A stretch of 64,000 bases of DNA from a candidate division WOR-3 bacterium (GTDB lineage: Bacteria; Hydrothermota; Tepidihabitantia; Tepidihabitantales; Tepidihabitantaceae): contig JABLXZ010000002.1 of NCBI GenBank assembly GCA_013177935.1, forward strand, positions 124,001 to 188,000, written 5' to 3'. Below are positions 24,034-50,781 of the stretch, one piece after another. The notes under the pieces were generated by a model. The model worked only from the letters and a program-made list of their open reading frames with translations. It did not search any database and had not been told where the DNA came from. A program made the position numbers and the translations under genes. The stretch's first letter is position 1, and each line of letters opens with the position of its first letter.

Positions 24034-25305
24034 ATGAGCGAAAACCGCACTCTTGACCTTTCTGCCCGACCCCTGGAACTGGGCATGGAAGCGGTTGACC
24101 CGCTCGAAACCGAAAGGCTGCGTCGGGTCATCGCCGCCCAGGAACCGGGCTCAAATCTGCTCGGACTTCCCGCCGAAGAGATGCTCAGCCGGCTTGGTAT
24201 CCTGACCGCTCAGGGCAAATTGACCACCGCTGGTATGCTGCTGGTCGGTAAAGAGGAATACCTCCGTACGACCATCCCGGGCCACAGCGCCATCTACCTC
24301 CATATGAAAAACGATGTTGAGTACGACCGCCGCATCGACTCCACCAAACCGCTCCTCGCCCTCCTTGAAGAGTTCACCAATTCGGTTGAACCCCACAACC
24401 GTATCTTCACCCTGAAATTCGGTCTTTTCCACTTTGAAATTCCCGACTTTCCGCCTGAGGTCTATCGTGAAGCGCTGCTCAACGCCTTCACCCACCGCGA
24501 CTACTCAATACCCGCACCGGTCTATCTTCGCCACTTTCCGGACCGGCTGGAAATCTCCTCACCCGGCGGATTTTTAAGCGATGTTACCCCGGAAAACATC
24601 ATTGGCCATGAGCCAATCAGCCGCAACCCGCTTCTTGCCGAAATCCTTGAGCGCATCCGCCTGGTCGAGCGCGCTGGTATGGGTGTGAAACGGATGTTCC
24701 AGATTCTCCTCTCCTATGGCAAAGAGCCGCCCGCGTACGAATCGGGCGCCGACTATGTGCGGGTTACGCTCCGTTCGGGCCGGGCCGAAAACAAAATTGA
24801 CGAAAACTTTGCCCGCTTTGTTGTCCGCTGCCAGCAGGAGGGCAAAGAACTTTCCCTTGCCGACCTCTTGCTCCTCAACTGGCTCAAACGCAACCGCGAA
24901 CTGGACCTTACCGAAGCCCGCACCATCCTGGGCCGGTCCGAACGGGAGGCGTACGAAGCGCTCACCGCAATGGTCAACCGTGGACTCCTTGAACCGTTTG
25001 GTGAAAAAAAGGGCAGGGTTTACCGGCTGTCAAAAATGGCTTATGCCCGGCTGCGCAAATCGGTAAACTACTACCCGTTCCGCCGCGCCGAATCCACCTA
25101 TGCCGAGACCACAATTCTTCACTACCTTGAAGACCTTTCTGGACCTGAGGAGTCCCGCTTCATCACCAACGAGATTGTCCGCACCCTTTTGCGCGTCTCA
25201 CCGGACCAGGCAACCTATATCCTTAACCGGCTGGTAAAACAGGGCAAACTGACCCTAAAGGGCAAGGGCAGAGGCGCCCGTTACTACCTGAGAAAAACGC
25301 CATAG
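24034..25305 (+). CDS. ATP-binding regulator with RecG-C-terminal (HATPase_c_4) domain and winged helices
   Basis: The 423-aa protein contains PPEVYREALLNAFTHRDYSIPAPVYLRHFPDRLEISSPGGFL and RNPLLAEILERIRLVERAGMGVKRMF, the hallmark of the domain shared with COG2865 regulators. Those usually carry an N-terminal AlbA_2/Schlafen domain, which is missing here; the protein begins just upstream of the linker. The C-terminal 150 residues look like two winged-helix units. No helicase motifs are present despite the database name. Probably a DNA-binding regulator of unknown targets. Confidence 0.7.
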   Translation: MSENRTLDLSARPLELGMEAVDPLETERLRRVIAAQEPGSNLLGLPAEEMLSRLGILTAQGKLTTAGMLLVGKEEYLRTTIPGHSAIYLHMKNDVEYDRRIDSTKPLLALLEEFTNSVEPHNRIFTLKFGLFHFEIPDFPPEVYREALLNAFTHRDYSIPAPVYLRHFPDRLEISSPGGFLSDVTPENIIGHEPISRNPLLAEILERIRLVERAGMGVKRMFQILLSYGKEPPAYESGADYVRVTLRSGRAENKIDENFARFVVRCQQEGKELSLADLLLLNWLKRNRELDLTEARTILGRSEREAYEALTAMVNRGLLEPFGEKKGRVYRLSKMAYARLRKSVNYYPFRRAESTYAETTILHYLEDLSGPEESRFITNEIVRTLLRVSPDQATYILNRLVKQGKLTLKGKGRGARYYLRKTP

Positions 25306-25396
25306 CAACCCCAGGACCCGGGCACAACAAAAGTTTTTAAGGATACCAGCACAAAACCCAAAAGACATCAATTTCCCACACCATCCCCGAAACCGT

Positions 25397-25502
25397 CCCG
25401 GGGTTGGGTATGGAAAATCGGCTGCAAAAAGATTAACTTACAAAACATCAAAGTGTTATGTAAAAACCCACTCTTACTTTAAGTATACTTTAAAGTATAC
25501 TT
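25397..25502 (+). repeat. Shared intergenic element, copy A
   Basis: CCCGGGGTTGGGTATGGA (25397-25414) and the palindrome at 25481-25502 (core TACTTTAAAGTA) recur upstream of the M28 gene. The spacing between the two landmarks is 85 bp here and 84 bp there. The first part can fold back on an upstream CCATCCCC (25381-25388). It probably controls both peptidase genes. Confidence 0.7.
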
Positions 25503-25606: not shown

Positions 25607-25634
25607 TTGACCGCACAATAATGTTTATTATAAT
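25607..25634 (+). promoter_or_regulatory. Subtilase promoter
   Basis: TTGACC (25607-25612), 16-nt spacer and a perfect TATAAT (25629-25634) lie about 105 bases downstream of the palindrome. A roughly 23-nt leader with AAAGGAGG leads to the GTG at 25664. Confidence 0.65.
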
Positions 25635-25663: not shown

Positions 25664-28384
25664 GTGAGTAAAACAATCGTCGCCAGCATTTTTTTAATGC
25701 TGAGCATCGTCCCAATCTCTGCCTTGCCCGCAGACCATTTTCGTAGTGGGCAAATTCACCGCTTTGCATCCGAACCCGGTGCGGAAATCAACTTCATCTC
25801 TTTTAGCAACGGCTATACCATTGACACCCGCTATGGTGAACCCAGCCTGCCGGTCGATTTGCGGCTTGAGCCGGCTGAAGCCCGCTACTACATCGTTCAA
25901 TTTACCGGACCGATTCAACGGTCCTGGTTTTCCCGATTAAACACCCTGGGCATCCAGACAATCGGTTATCTACCCTATTACGCCACCATCGCCCGTTTGA
26001 CACCCGCGCAACTGGAACAGGTCGCGCAACTGCCCTTTGTCCGCTGGACCGGCATCTTTCAGCCCGCCTACAAAATTCAGGCGGAACTCTTGAACAGCAC
26101 CGAACCCGAAGACATTGCCGTTCTCGTAACACCTGGCGAACCTTCCCAGCCCCTTGAAAATCTCATCACGCTGCAGGGTGGCATTGTTGTCCAGAAAACC
26201 GAAAGTCCGTTTGGCACCGTGATTCAGGCGCGGCTTCCGGGCTGGGCAATTCCGGTAATTGCCCGCGCACCCGAGGCGTTCTGGATTCAGGAGTGGACCG
26301 AACCAACAACCGCCAACAGCAATGGCCAATGGGTCACCCAATCGGGCTGGCGTGCTACCGCACCGCCCGACACCTCAACCGAAGCGCGGCCTGTGTGGCG
26401 CAATGGCGTGCGCGGTCAAGGGGTCATTCTTTCAACCACCGACACCGGCTTGAACCTCGGTCACGATATGTTCCGGGACCCAACGCTATCGGTAACCCCG
26501 CCTGGAATCTGGCCCGAACATCGCAAGGTGGTCGCCTACAAAAAGTACGGCACCGCCGATGCGAGTGAAGGACAGTACCACGGCTCCCATGTCAACGGCA
26601 CTGTTGCCGGTGACGACTCAATTACCGGTGGCACCAGTTACTACGATGGGATGTCAATCAAGGGTCGCCTCTACTTTGTTGACCTGACCAACGGCACCAG
26701 TTTTGTTCTTGGCACCGACCTCTGGGCCCTCTGGGATACGGTCTATTTTGGACGGGGTTTGCCCGATTCGCTCCGGCCCATCAAACAGCACTCTGGCTCC
26801 TGGGGCTGGTCCAACTCCTCAGGTACCTATCTTCTCCAGGACGCATCAACCGACGCCTTCATCTGGGCGCACAAAGACTTCTTGAACATTATGGCAGCGG
26901 GCAATGAGTACTCAAGCCGGAGAATTCGCAATCCGGGTATTGCGAAGAATGTTTTGACCGTGGGCGCGCTCCAGAACGGCACCGCATCTAACACCATCGC
27001 CTCATTTTCCAGCCGGGGTCCGACCCAGGACGGCAGGCTCAAACCGAGCATTATGGCACCGGGCGAAGGTATCTACTCCGCAACCCGCACCGGCACCAAC
27101 ACCTATCAGTCAATGGACGGCACCTCAATGGCAACGCCGATGACCAGTGGCGCCATTGGACTCATCCGCTGTTACCTCCAGGAAGGCTTTTACCCGACCG
27201 GCACGCCAACACCGGAAAACCGCATCTCCTACATCTCGGCAGCACTGCTCCGCTCAATGGCAATCGCCTCTGCCGACCCGAACATCGGTTCCTACACACC
27301 ACCGGACAACAACATCGGCTGGGGCAGAATTGATGTCGATTCGGTGCTCTACTTTGCGGGCGACACCCGGAAACTTCTGTTAAAAGACGACACGATTGGC
27401 ATCGCCACCGGCGAATATGCCGAAGAGCAGTTCCGGGTTGAATCCCAAATCCCGTTAAGGGTCGCCCTTGCCTGGTCTGACACCGCTGCTGCGCCCAGTG
27501 CCAACCCCACCCTTGTCAACAACCTTGACTTAGAACTGATTTCGCCCACCGGCACCTACTACCGCGGCAACAAGTACAGCGCGGGTCAATCCATCGCCAA
27601 CCCTACCGGCTGGGACTCAATCAACACCGAAGAGTGCTGTCGCATCAACGCACCGGACACCGGACTCTGGACAATTCGGGTTTATGGCCGCAATGTGGCA
27701 ACCGGTAGCCGTCAGCCTTTTGCCTGGACAATCACCGGCGCGCTCGCCCTGCCCACAACAACCCACGATGCCGGCGTAATGGCAATCATCACCCCGAGCG
27801 GTGACATCGACTCGGGCACGGTCATCACACCCCAGGCACTGGTTAAAAACTACGGCACGACCGAAGAAGAGATTACGGTGGTGTTCAACATCTCGTCACT
27901 CTACTCCGACTCCCAGACCGTTACGCTCGCCGCCGGTGCCGCCGAAACCCTTGACTTCGACCCCTGGACCGCAGAAGTAATCGGCACCCAGACCGCAACA
28001 TCGTTCACCATCCTGTCCGGCGATGAAAATCCGGCAAACGACACCGCCCGGTTTGAGTTTGAAGTGCTGCCCGGAACCGGCGTTGAAGAAGGCAGCGCAT
28101 CGCTCAATCGGGTATTCCTTGCTCCAGCCGAACCCAACCCCTTCCGCAACAGTGTCTCTCTCCGCTTCAACCTGCCTATATCCAGTTCGGTGAAACTCCA
28201 GATTTTCTCGGTGACCGGCGAACTTGTCGCCAGCCTCGTCAACACCGAAAAACCGGCTGGTACCCACACCGTCATCTGGAACGGAACCCTCGAAAACGGC
28301 AAAAGTGCTTACTACGGCGTGTTCTACTGCCGGCTCAGCGCAGGCAATACCGTGCTCACCCGCAAACTGGTTAAAACCCGATAA
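25664..28384 (+). CDS. Secreted subtilisin-like serine protease (S8) with C-terminal sorting domain
   Basis: The 906-aa preproprotein starts at GTG after AAAGGAGG. A signal peptide (1-22) and a propeptide of about 210 residues precede the S8 domain. The triad is visible: Asp260 (STTDTGLNLGHD), His309 (YHGSHVNGTVAG) and Ser488 (DGTSMATPMTSG). A jelly-roll domain (about 570-700), a CARDB-like domain and a FlgD-like sorting domain (from PNPFRNS near 820) follow. It is probably released or surface-anchored and degrades external protein. It shares an upstream element with an M28 peptidase gene. Confidence 0.9.
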   Translation: MSKTIVASIFLMLSIVPISALPADHFRSGQIHRFASEPGAEINFISFSNGYTIDTRYGEPSLPVDLRLEPAEARYYIVQFTGPIQRSWFSRLNTLGIQTIGYLPYYATIARLTPAQLEQVAQLPFVRWTGIFQPAYKIQAELLNSTEPEDIAVLVTPGEPSQPLENLITLQGGIVVQKTESPFGTVIQARLPGWAIPVIARAPEAFWIQEWTEPTTANSNGQWVTQSGWRATAPPDTSTEARPVWRNGVRGQGVILSTTDTGLNLGHDMFRDPTLSVTPPGIWPEHRKVVAYKKYGTADASEGQYHGSHVNGTVAGDDSITGGTSYYDGMSIKGRLYFVDLTNGTSFVLGTDLWALWDTVYFGRGLPDSLRPIKQHSGSWGWSNSSGTYLLQDASTDAFIWAHKDFLNIMAAGNEYSSRRIRNPGIAKNVLTVGALQNGTASNTIASFSSRGPTQDGRLKPSIMAPGEGIYSATRTGTNTYQSMDGTSMATPMTSGAIGLIRCYLQEGFYPTGTPTPENRISYISAALLRSMAIASADPNIGSYTPPDNNIGWGRIDVDSVLYFAGDTRKLLLKDDTIGIATGEYAEEQFRVESQIPLRVALAWSDTAAAPSANPTLVNNLDLELISPTGTYYRGNKYSAGQSIANPTGWDSINTEECCRINAPDTGLWTIRVYGRNVATGSRQPFAWTITGALALPTTTHDAGVMAIITPSGDIDSGTVITPQALVKNYGTTEEEITVVFNISSLYSDSQTVTLAAGAAETLDFDPWTAEVIGTQTATSFTILSGDENPANDTARFEFEVLPGTGVEEGSASLNRVFLAPAEPNPFRNSVSLRFNLPISSSVKLQIFSVTGELVASLVNTEKPAGTHTVIWNGTLENGKSAYYGVFYCRLSAGNTVLTRKLVKTR

Positions 28385-47082: not shown

Positions 47083-47409
47083 CTACATTATTTCTGTCCT
47101 TCGGCGCAACTCTTGAAGGCAGGAGTCAAGCACCTGAAATCGGCGTTGCTCATACTCAATATCATCAAGTAGTTCCTGATAGAATCGGCATCGGGCAAAA
47201 CCGTCATAATCGCCGATCTTCTGATACAACTCCCGTACCTTTTCCAAATGCGCCCGGGCAAGCCGATAACTTCCTTTTCCCATTCGGATAAGCGCCGCCA
47301 TGACCAGCGCATCCGCCTCATCGGCAAAATGTTCCGCATTGTGGGCAAACTCCATCGCCTTGAACAACGCCTCGGGCGCCTTGTCCAGCCGGTCTTCAAG
47401 ATGGTTCAA
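47083..47409 (-). CDS. Short TPR-like protein or gene remnant
   Basis: The 108-aa frame from a TTG (47409) encodes helix pairs with TPR character (ADEADALVMAALIRMGKGSYRLARAHLEKVRELYQKIGDYDGFARCRFYQELLDDI). No ATG, GTG or Shine-Dalgarno site is available at the 5' end; the open frame extends only about 17 codons more before a stop. Protein-like composition suggests a real gene that has lost its 5' part, perhaps the end of a longer TPR regulator. It faces the BNR gene whose promoter lies just beyond it. Confidence 0.4.
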   Translation of the reverse strand: MNHLEDRLDKAPEALFKAMEFAHNAEHFADEADALVMAALIRMGKGSYRLARAHLEKVRELYQKIGDYDGFARCRFYQELLDDIEYEQRRFQVLDSCLQELRRRTEIM

Positions 47410-47425
47410 TGCACCGGCACCGGTA

Positions 47426-47454
47426 TTGACAGTGGGGTTAACCCGTTGTTTACT
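47426..47454 (+). promoter_or_regulatory. Promoter of second BNR gene, near-leaderless
   Basis: TTGACA (47426-47431), 17-nt spacer and TTTACT (47449-47454) end 3 bases before the ATG at 47458. Confidence 0.45.
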
Positions 47455-47457
47455 TTT

Positions 47458-48870
47458 ATGTTGATTTTACTTAGCACCGTCTGCCTGTTCTTCGCTTTCT
47501 CCGGTCCCGGGTTGCTGCCCGTTTCCGGGCAAGTAACCGTGCCTTTGTTCGTGGAATCACCCCTTGTCCGGACCGGCGCTCAACTGTCTTCACCCGTCCT
47601 GATTGACAGTTCGGTTTTGGCCGCGTTTGGTGCGGCGCTTGACGCCCACAAGCGGCTCTGGGCTGCGGTCAGCACCCCGGATGGCAAACTGACGCTTTAC
47701 CGTTCCCAAACCCCGGGAAACCTCTGGGAAGATGTTTTAACCATCAACCTCGGCCAGCCCGCCCGGTTAATTGAACTAATCGCACCAGCCGTACCCGCAC
47801 CCCTGTTCATATTTTACCTGACTGCAGAAAACCACGGCGACCTTTACCTTCTCCGTTTTGACCCGGTGACGCTCGACACCCAGAAGATTCCATTAGCCGT
47901 TGGTCCGGACACAGTTGACGACTTTTCGGTAACCGTGGACCCGGACTCTAACTACTACCTCTACCTCCTTTATGTGAACGAGCATCGGACCGGCTTGAAC
48001 GGCTACTTTACCCGTTCCCTTGATGGTGGCAGAAACTGGGAAGGGCGACAGCCCTTCTGGAACTGTTTTGACCCGGCGCTTTCATTTGGCACCGGCTCAC
48101 TTCTCCACTGCATCTGGCGCTATGCCATCACCGGACGGGAAATCCATTATGCCGCGAACCGCTACTACGGCGCTGCAAGCCGCTGGTCCGGTCTGTACAC
48201 CCTGAAATCGGGCAGCGAAAGGTGCTTTGACCCGGTTATCGCTCAGGCGCCGGTCATACCGTACTGGCGGGCACCGGTCTGGGCTTTCTGGACTGTGGCG
48301 CGCCGCGACACCGCGATGCTGGATATTGAATACACGCTCTCAACCGATGGCGGCCGCTCCTGGGGAACTACGGGCAATCTCGGTGCAATGTTTGTGGACG
48401 AATGGTTTCCCGACCTCACCACCGCCACGGGCAGCGCCGAACTGTGCTACAACGCCGGTGCCCGAACGGAAAATGCGGCCACTGTCCTGTACTGGCAAAC
48501 CAGCCGCTCTTATGCACCGCAGTTGTGGTCCGCACCAGTTCGGGTTAATGCCCCCCGGCTAAATTGCCGGGTCGAAGGCGCCCGACCCCGCCTGATACCC
48601 CTGTCCTGGAATAAACCGTGCCTTCCTGGTGTTTTCTTCAGCCTTTACGATTCCGTGGGCGCGCGCGGGCTCTACTTCTCACCCGTGCTTGGCAAAAACG
48701 AACCCGGCCCGCTGCCCGCTCCCGCAGTGCTGCATCAGGTAATTGAACCCGGTACCGACCTGTTCGATGTTACCGGCAGAAAAGTAAGGTCGCCCCATTT
48801 TCCAAATCGGCAAGGCATCTTTTTCCAGCGCTCCGGCACCACCCTGAAGAAAATTGTCAGATTGAGATAA
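47458..48870 (+). CDS. Secreted sialidase-like BNR protein with truncated sorting domain
   Basis: The 470-aa protein is taken from ATG (47458), which begins a signal peptide (MLILLSTVCLFFAFSG); the frame extends upstream to 47248 but overlaps the TPR ORF and lacks a start signal. The body has Asp-box-like blades (TRSLDGGRNWEG, STDGGRSWGTTG) of a sialidase-type propeller. The C-terminus keeps only the second half of a FlgD-like domain (LFDVTGRKVRS, QGIFFQRSG, KKIVRLR). The catalytic Arg triad of true sialidases could not be assigned. Confidence 0.65.
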   Translation: MLILLSTVCLFFAFSGPGLLPVSGQVTVPLFVESPLVRTGAQLSSPVLIDSSVLAAFGAALDAHKRLWAAVSTPDGKLTLYRSQTPGNLWEDVLTINLGQPARLIELIAPAVPAPLFIFYLTAENHGDLYLLRFDPVTLDTQKIPLAVGPDTVDDFSVTVDPDSNYYLYLLYVNEHRTGLNGYFTRSLDGGRNWEGRQPFWNCFDPALSFGTGSLLHCIWRYAITGREIHYAANRYYGAASRWSGLYTLKSGSERCFDPVIAQAPVIPYWRAPVWAFWTVARRDTAMLDIEYTLSTDGGRSWGTTGNLGAMFVDEWFPDLTTATGSAELCYNAGARTENAATVLYWQTSRSYAPQLWSAPVRVNAPRLNCRVEGARPRLIPLSWNKPCLPGVFFSLYDSVGARGLYFSPVLGKNEPGPLPAPAVLHQVIEPGTDLFDVTGRKVRSPHFPNRQGIFFQRSGTTLKKIVRLR

Positions 48871-48984
48871 ACCCGGACCCGGGTTCGCAAAACAGTTGTA
48901 CCATTGATTTGTACTCTAACCCTCGATCCGGATTAATACCATACACCATCCGAGCCCGGATTTCCCATGCCATTCCCCTAACAA

Positions 48985-49088
48985 CCCCGGGGTTGGGTAT
49001 GGATTTTTATGACTTTTTGTCCAACTCTTTAAAAACTGGCGCGTTATACTCGAAACCGTTTTCCACCCCATTGTACTTTAAAGTATAC
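48985..49088 (+). repeat. Shared intergenic element, copy B
   Basis: CCCCGGGGTTGGGTATGGA (48985-49003) and GTACTTTAAAGTATAC (49073-49088) match copy A with the landmarks 84 bp apart. The upstream CCATTCCCC differs from copy A's CCATCCCC yet still pairs with GGGTATGG, which suggests that structure is conserved. Confidence 0.7.
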
Positions 49089-49155: not shown

Positions 49156-49183
49156 TTGACTTGAACCCGCGCTCTGCTATCAT
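49156..49183 (+). promoter_or_regulatory. Promoter of M28 peptidase gene
   Basis: TTGACT (49156-49161), 16-nt spacer and TATCAT (49178-49183). The leader is about 28 nt and carries GAAAGGAG before the ATG at 49219. Confidence 0.6.
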
Positions 49184-49218: not shown

Positions 49219-50781
49219 ATGCGTCAAGGACGCTTGGTATTTTTGCTTGGTTTTGTTTTTTCTATTTTAACGGGCAAGGAGTTGCTGCTGCGCGTTGACA
49301 AGTCCGCCCCTGACCTTTTGTCACGCGCGCTGCCGGTGGTTGCCGAGTTTGACGGCTACTCCCTTGTCTGCGGTTCTGAGGCGGATTATGCCGCACTTCA
49401 GCACGAAGGACTGCCCTGTGAACTGTTGACCGAAAACCCCCGTGCCCAAACGATTTTCTATGTCCAGACCCCACCCGACTTTGACCGCAGTTTGCTCGAA
49501 AAACTGGGCACGGTGCTCACCACCGACCCGGCCGGCGTTGTCCTTGCCACAAGTGAAGACAACCTTTTATCGCTCAACCGCCTGCCCGTGGAACTGACAC
49601 GCCTCAACCTGGAACAATTGAAACCAACCACCGGTTTAACACCCCTGCCTGTCCCCTATCCGGTGTCGGAAAGCCTGGTTCAGGAGATTGTGTCAAGGGT
49701 TAACGCCGATTCGGTTTTGGGCACAATCCGGCGCCTGCAGGAGTTTTACACCCGTTATTCAACAACCGACTCCTGTCGGGCGGCGGTTGCCTGGATGGGC
49801 GAAAAACTCGCCTACTACAACTGCGACTCGGTTGCCTTTGACACCTTCCTGCCCAGTTATGCACCCAATGTTATTGGCGTCAAGTTTGGGCAGGAGAACC
49901 CGCGCCAGATTTACATCATCTGTGGCCATATCGACAACACTTCGGACAACCCGCCCTATCACTGCCCGGGCTCGGACGACAACGCCAGTGGCACCAGCGC
50001 CGTGTTAGAGGCGGCACGGGTGTTTCAGGACATCGACTTCGCCTACACGGTCTACTTTATCGGCTTTACCGGTGAGGAGCAGGGGCTTTACGGCTCGGAC
50101 AGCTTTGCCGCCCGTGCCTATCGCCGGGGCGACTCGATCCGGGCGGTTTTGAACTTTGATATGATATCCTATGGCCGGCAGAACCGCGACACCCTGAATG
50201 TCGTCGGCAAGACCTCAAACCCGAACTGTGCCTGGCTCGTTGACTCGTTTATCGCCAACGCCAATTTGTACACCACCCTGAAAACCCGGCGCCGGCTCGT
50301 AACCTCTTACCCTTCATCTGACCACCACTCCTTCTGGGTCCGCGGCTATGTTGCCCTCTGCGGAATTGAGCGCGACTTCACCCCGAAGTACCACACCATC
50401 GGCGATACAATTGGTCCGCTCTATTATGTGGACTGCGGCACCAACAACTGGCTGATGGCAACCGAGGCGATTAAGGCGGCGGTGGCAACAATTGCCAAAA
50501 TGGCGGGCGCACTACCCCCGGGCACCGGTGTCAACGAGCGTCTGGCGCCCAAAACCGTCACCCCGCTTATAATAACCCCTACAGTCGGCAGGGCACCTTT
50601 TAAGATTCAGGCGCCAGGTGCGGTTGATGTGTTCACGCCGCTTGGTACCCGAGTTGCGCACCTTGGGGTAAATACGCCTTACTGGGACGGGAGAAATGAT
50701 GCTGGGCAACCGGTTTCACCGGGCGTTTACCTCGTGCGCAGCGGCACCGGCGGCTGGCGCCGTATCGTTGTCACCCATTGA
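49219..50781 (+). CDS. Secreted M28 zinc aminopeptidase with sorting domain (second paralog)
   Basis: The 520-aa protein starts at ATG after AAAGGAG. A signal peptide and a propeptide of about 150 residues precede the M28 domain. Zinc-site motifs are GHIDNTSDNPPYHCPGSDDNASGTSAV, TGEEQGLYGSD, FDMISY and SDHHSFW. A short FlgD-like domain ends it (DVFTPLGTRVAHL, YWDGRNDAGQPVSPGVYLVRS). It shares the propeptide-end motif VSRVNADSVL...RRLQ...TRYST.DSCRAA with the paralog at 33238 but lacks that protein's extra C-terminal domains. Confidence 0.9.
   Translation: MRQGRLVFLLGFVFSILTGKELLLRVDKSAPDLLSRALPVVAEFDGYSLVCGSEADYAALQHEGLPCELLTENPRAQTIFYVQTPPDFDRSLLEKLGTVLTTDPAGVVLATSEDNLLSLNRLPVELTRLNLEQLKPTTGLTPLPVPYPVSESLVQEIVSRVNADSVLGTIRRLQEFYTRYSTTDSCRAAVAWMGEKLAYYNCDSVAFDTFLPSYAPNVIGVKFGQENPRQIYIICGHIDNTSDNPPYHCPGSDDNASGTSAVLEAARVFQDIDFAYTVYFIGFTGEEQGLYGSDSFAARAYRRGDSIRAVLNFDMISYGRQNRDTLNVVGKTSNPNCAWLVDSFIANANLYTTLKTRRRLVTSYPSSDHHSFWVRGYVALCGIERDFTPKYHTIGDTIGPLYYVDCGTNNWLMATEAIKAAVATIAKMAGALPPGTGVNERLAPKTVTPLIITPTVGRAPFKIQAPGAVDVFTPLGTRVAHLGVNTPYWDGRNDAGQPVSPGVYLVRSGTGGWRRIVVTH

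Follow-up and report, generated by a model that had tools for sequence, protein, structure and literature searches.

A conserved family of 21 composite intergenic elements in a candidate division WOR-3 bacterium and a candidate binding protein

Introduction

Sites dispersed over a bacterial chromosome and involved in its organisation are known from the parS/ParB, matS/MatP and NBS/Noc systems. The elements described here resemble them as a set of some 20 palindromic sites, dispersed without relation to the function of the neighbouring genes, but differ in that all copies (21/21) are intergenic, in their three-part structure of ~134 bp, in the lack of replication polarity and in the family of the candidate protein. 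A second likeness is to the autoregulated repressors of the cI/434 type (Pfam HTH_31 and HTH_3), namely an N-terminal helix-turn-helix (HTH) fold and a palindromic operator over the repressor's own promoter. The present case differs from these in a C-terminal region of ~230 aa that matched nothing in Pfam, NCBIfam, PHROGs or PDB, in ~20 extra sites that have no promoter, and in arrays of 12-bp units upstream of many of the homologous genes.

REPtrons, in which dispersed intergenic REP elements are accompanied by a cognate TnpA-REP (RAYT) gene that is usually single-copy and co-evolves with them (PMC8266576, PMC2817692), are also comparable, as both systems consist of dispersed palindromic intergenic sites with one gene-linked copy, here 21 copies with one beside an HTH gene. 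The linked gene of a REPtron encodes a HuH transposase, whereas here it encodes a protein resembling cI/XRE-type repressors, and REP sequences are GTAG-tagged hairpins of 20–50 nt found in hundreds, whereas the present element has three parts, ~134 bp and 21 copies. GTAG is not an invariant hairpin foot in the elements. Identification as a REPtron was rejected, as the Y1 (HuH, PF01797) transposase had 0 matches in the genomes G000, G001 and G014 and the control genomes were positive. A search of the literature found no description of elements of this kind.

Architecture of the element

The DNA analysed, here termed the window, is a stretch of 64,000 nt from genome G000 (GenBank assembly number GCA_013177935.1, contig JABLXZ010000002.1, positions 124,001–188,000). 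An earlier note on this DNA had described a non-coding element shared by two unlinked loci, with two landmarks 85 and 84 bp apart. Both landmarks, GGGGTTGGGTATGGA (25400–25414 and 48989–49003) and TACTTTAAAGTA (25486–25497 and 49074–49085), were found in the places given, but their start-to-start spacing was measured as 86 bp in copy 1 and 85 bp in copy 2. The palindrome of copy 1 is indeed a perfect 22-mer, AAGTATACTTTAAAGTATACTT at 25481–25502. The shared element is real but had been understated, both loci belonging to a set of 21 copies.

Searched against the genome, the first landmark had 8 exact matches and many near ones, and alignment of these revealed a composite element of ~134 bp made up of a GC-rich dyad (box A), a middle motif (B) and a palindrome (box C) (Table 1). 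The consensus consists of box A, AATTTCCCATACCATCCCYGAAACTACCCCGGGGTTGGGTAKGGAAAAT, followed by the looser motif B, TTAAC-N4-TAAATTACAA-N3-GTTAT, and by box C, TATACTTTAAAGTATA, which is a true dyad. Box A and box C are separated by 67–70 bp in 42/42 copies from G000 and G001, a genome of the same genus.

Table 1 Features of the two element copies in the window. Positions are those of the window, with genome coordinates in brackets.
Feature	Position	Strand	Description
Element copy 1	25366..25500 (G000:C2:149366-149500)	+	profile R1, 99 bits, E 3e-28; between HTH/ATPase-domain gene 24034-25305 and subtilase gene 25664-28384
Box A, copy 1	25370..25418	+	AATTTCCC...CCCGGGGTTGGGTATGGAAAAT, GC-rich imperfect dyad
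Motif B, copy 1	25433..25459	+	TTAAC-N17-GTTAT; from alignments
Box C, copy 1	25481..25502	.	22-bp perfect palindrome, core TATACTTTAAAGTATA at 25484-25499
Separate sigma70-like promoter of subtilase gene	25607..25634	+	TTGACC-N16-TATAAT, 105 bp beyond palindrome; consensus match only
Element copy 2	48958..49088 (G000:C2:172958-173088)	+	profile R1, 74.7 bits, E 1e-20, weakest of 21; between gene 47248-48870 and M28 peptidase gene 49219-50781
Box A, copy 2	48960..49007	+	ATTTCCC...CCCCGGGGTTGGGTATGGATTTT
Motif B, copy 2	49021..49047	+	CCAAC-N17-GTTAT
Box C, copy 2	49072..49087	.	TGTACTTTAAAGTATA, 1 mismatch to 16-bp consensus
Separate sigma70-like promoter of M28 gene	49156..49183	+	TTGACT-N16-TATCAT, 69 bp beyond palindrome; consensus match only

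The product of the gene at 24034-25305 has an HATPase_c_4 match and a weak HTH_17 match, and this gene ends 60 bp before copy 1 in both congeners; the protein is possibly a regulator in its own right.

Copy number and conservation

The sequence-profile search of G000 returned 21 element copies at 74.7–105 bits, the next match scoring 21.6 bits. When up to 2 mismatches were allowed, the 16-bp palindrome was found genome-wide in the 21 element copies and nowhere else, while the reversed control pattern had 1 match per strand. A chance origin of the two matches in the window is excluded genome-wide. When 84,980 genomes, a collection from which near relatives may be missing, were scanned with the pattern, 9 scattered matches in unrelated phyla were obtained; they were judged to be due to chance, about a dozen being expected by our estimate.

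All 21 copies are syntenic with counterparts in G001, where the adjoining proteins are mostly 70–97% identical. Box C is 96% identical among orthologous and paralogous copies alike, and box A over all copies shows 88% identity between orthologues and 85% between paralogues (shuffled 54%), so that the boxes, like their spacing, are near-invariant. Motif B is weaker, with 72% between orthologues and 64% between paralogues against 60% for shuffled sequences. The spacers show an identity of 0.62–0.64 between orthologues and 0.53–0.55 between paralogues, the latter being about the shuffled value, and spacers and flanks together are 62–66% identical between the two species (shuffled 52–58%). The 21-copy intergenic site family is thus real and conserved. 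Because the boxes are conserved and the spacers are not, and because the copies occupy orthologous places, we infer that each of the 21 sites is individually maintained by selection, since recent spread would leave the spacers alike and decay would ruin the boxes; we know of no simpler account. The element is most simply regarded as a candidate protein-binding DNA site, and the proposal in the earlier note of a protein-binding palindrome within a shared module appears well founded to this extent.

Descent from an old MITE-like mobile repeat, which went through a single spread and has since been domesticated or is in decay, so that conservation reflects common origin, would agree with the dispersal of the intergenic copies and with the sharp-edged repeats of genome G024 described below. 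It would also agree with the near-identical copies of G014, among which L123, L125 and L129 share near-identical downstream flanks, several G014 copies lying at or near contig ends; this suggests recent duplication of copies in that genome. As a full explanation it is nevertheless quite unlikely, as 21/21 copies are orthologous in two species, neither terminal inverted repeats nor target duplications were seen, and the spacers are randomised next to near-invariant boxes, where decay alone would not have spared only the boxes. The copies may nonetheless have arisen by spreading and come under selection afterwards. Many copies at random positions would have pointed, according to the earlier note, to a dispersed repeat; the copies are dispersed, but their positions are conserved.

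Three further identifications were rejected. A replication-polarity signal was dismissed on the orientation of the elements, which is without bias (GC skew positive at 9/21 copies), and a small coding gene running from box A into the array on the frequent stops and the absence of a codon-position signal beyond box A in two species. A site of the attC type (GTTRRRY-like core) was rejected on sequence, with neither a cassette array nor an enclosing inverted pair of cores.

RNA structure

A structured segment had also been proposed, with a first hairpin whose arm differs between the copies yet still pairs. A family of non-coding RNAs or cis-regulatory RNA structures would be consistent with the good folding that individual sequences can show, as on the minus strand of copy 1 (z=-5.5), but copy 2 folds no better than shuffled sequences on this strand (z=-0.2), with z -1.4 on the plus strand. 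The consensus fold of 42 minus-strand sequences amounts to only -2.2 kcal/mol, essentially without a covariation term. Covariation was absent on both strands in alignments of 20 or 42 sequences, 0/18 predicted pairs on the plus strand showing a two-sided change, and Rfam had no match within the window. Conservation as RNA was therefore not borne out, and an RNA family is very improbable.

Neighbouring genes

Sequence was read in the stretches surrounding the element copies, where the flanking genes were called with a simple coding-score script, not taken from curated annotation, and several were named from our own reading of the sequences, the rest from Pfam. Three of the 21 copies face genes for secreted peptidases, two of family S8 and one M28, the S8 genes being 2 of the 8 in the genome. 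These fit the co-regulatory module for extracellular proteolysis put forward in the earlier note, but the other 18 sites face a heterogeneous set of genes, among them those for ArgS (arginyl-tRNA synthetase), alanine racemase, adenylate kinase, MurJ, SurE, MiaB, urocanase and LptF/G. Secreted proteins are not significantly enriched among the promoter-facing neighbours (10/30 versus 17/85, p=0.21), nor in the same-genus relative (p=1.0) or in the other genus (p=0.77), and no bias towards peptidases was found among the families listed for the flanking genes in genus g5. A role specific to proteolysis is barely credible.

The more general case is a classical regulon, in which a protein at box C directly represses or activates the genes beside all 21 sites. 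The positions of the copies are conserved, 17/21 are placed 5' to the palindrome-side gene and 12/21 between divergent genes, as such a regulon would have it. On the other hand, convergent genes flank one copy, three copies are oriented opposite to the gene downstream of them, the neighbours have no common function, and -35 boxes near box C are about as frequent as by chance (4/21 versus a null of 12%). The copies were not found to be sites over promoters of functionally related genes. In the window, box C cannot simply block the subtilase and M28 genes, because each has a separate sigma70-like promoter further on, 105 bp past the palindrome for the subtilase gene and 69 bp past it for the M28 gene. 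Direct control of all the adjacent genes is accordingly rather unlikely.

Candidate binding protein

The palindrome of one element copy lies 12 bp upstream of the start codon of a gene (G000:C1:123168-124172) encoding a cI/XRE-type HTH_31 protein of 335 aa. The promoter at this copy reads TTGCCC-N16-TATAAT or TTTGCC-N17-TATAAT, and the palindrome covers the -10 box of the gene. Within the family 11/11 members matched HTH_31 and 10/11 HTH_3, the 434 repressor was matched, and the PDB matches were 1r63 and 1per; PADLOC gave weak models only, mostly of HTH type. The C-terminal region of ~230 aa had no consistent match in Pfam, NCBIfam, PHROGs or PDB, and no invariant acidic or histidine residue occurs in it in an alignment of 11 members. 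As library matches stop at the HTH and such invariant residues are absent, the data argue for an oligomerisation or architectural part and not for a transposase or nuclease. Among the DNA-binding proteins of the genome, this one alone was assessed as a candidate.

A gingipain-like C25 peptidase with a propeptide (L095:188-3769; G000:C1, ~119.2–122.8 kb) ends just before the gene-bearing copy.

Judged from sequence, the likeliest binder of the site family is a cI-type protein that regulates its own gene. Each element would be a composite binding site of a single DNA-binding system extending over the chromosome, with box A, motif B and box C at fixed spacing and the HTH protein as the most likely binder of palindrome C. 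The copy over the -10 box of the HTH gene's own promoter would mediate autorepression, and the other 20 copies would be promoterless cognate sites in long intergenic regions, with a nucleoprotein or architectural role, possibly titration, rather than control of the next gene. The probability of this reading as a whole is put at roughly two in three.

Palindromes at homologous genes

The homologue in G014 (genus g5), with 33% identity, starts 8 bp after the palindrome of that genus, GTATACTTATAAGTATAC, which is part of an element of its own. A strong palindrome was present within 60 bp of the start of 12/28 homologues versus 6/189 control genes (p=2e-8), and a tandem array of 12-bp period upstream of 15/25 homologues versus 4/189 controls (p=2e-13), p-values that overstate independence as the homologues are phylogenetically related. 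Palindrome and array are thus statistically linked to this HTH gene family. The palindromes, 5–23 bp from the start in several genera, differ among homologues: ATTCTACAGCGCTGTAGAAT occurs in three g3 genomes, and TATATGAATTCATATA, ATGATAAGAATCCTTATCAT, GTTAGTTATAACTAAC and AACATTAGTTTAAACTAATGTT were also found. The predicted dispersal of ATTCTACAGCGCTGTAGAAT held, the sequence occurring 12 times in G016, 6 times in G004 and 3 times in G009 with 0 control matches, and most of these sites have a G-rich box and array-like sequence upstream. In gene-bearing g3 copies the palindrome encloses the -10 box of TTGATT-N17-TAGAAT; gene-less copies have no TTGATT. In G000 the gene-less copies show barely a trace of the 12-bp array.

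In a comparison of six genomes, the full-length protein and the element set co-occur in G000, G001 and G014 and are both absent from G002 (genus of G000), G006 and G010 (genus of G014). Against the pairing, many of the 28 homologues have no obvious palindrome, and dispersal is not universal for the family. Because two other gene-linked palindromes tested were single-copy in their genomes, some members may regulate only themselves, or their sites may have diverged beyond 1–3 mismatches. Genomes of genus g9 (G019 and G024) have elements with a related box, but such a protein was not found at E<=1e-6, and the pairing of elements with paralogues is uncertain in other genomes that have several of them.

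It is conceivable, though offered only tentatively, that the repressor-like HTH protein with its undescribed C-terminal domain and the ~20 composite sites form a chromosome-structuring or silencing system, in which lineages exchange palindrome and protein together and the 12-bp arrays belong to the nucleoprotein platform. The link between a strongly conserved, hitherto undescribed family of intergenic elements and a specific candidate protein yields a pair that can be put to concrete tests. If the pair is confirmed, the REPtron-like notion of one gene with many dispersed sites would be carried over from transposases to repressors, and the homologous genes preceded by different palindromes in different genera would constitute a natural series of protein-operator variants.

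Related elements in other genomes

G008, G012, G021 and G026 have either related boxes (on the opposite strand, GGGGCAGTATAGGGGATGGTAT) or comparable G-rich boxes accompanied by arrays of 12-bp period, whereas G019, G022 and G024 have a related box that lacks an array; all of these may belong to one system. The arrays in G021, G026 and G008 (L146–L149) are non-coding, ~300–400 bp long and composed of degenerate 12-bp tandem units beside a G-rich box, with a genome-specific unit consensus, e.g. GGTCTAATNNNN, GGGTNGTTTAGG and TGGATTNTATCC. A dispersed element of ~300 bp is present in at least 26, 7 and 3 copies in G024, G022 and G019, respectively (L184–L213). Its left end resembles a terminator (AAAAAAGTGCTAACCTTTGGGGCTCTTTTTTCG), its right end is sharp (GGGGCAGTATAG..GATGGTATAG), and it often contains a small variable reading frame following a ribosome site. 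The HTH_31 protein is unusually expanded in G004, G012 and G017, with up to 14–21 paralogues per genome.
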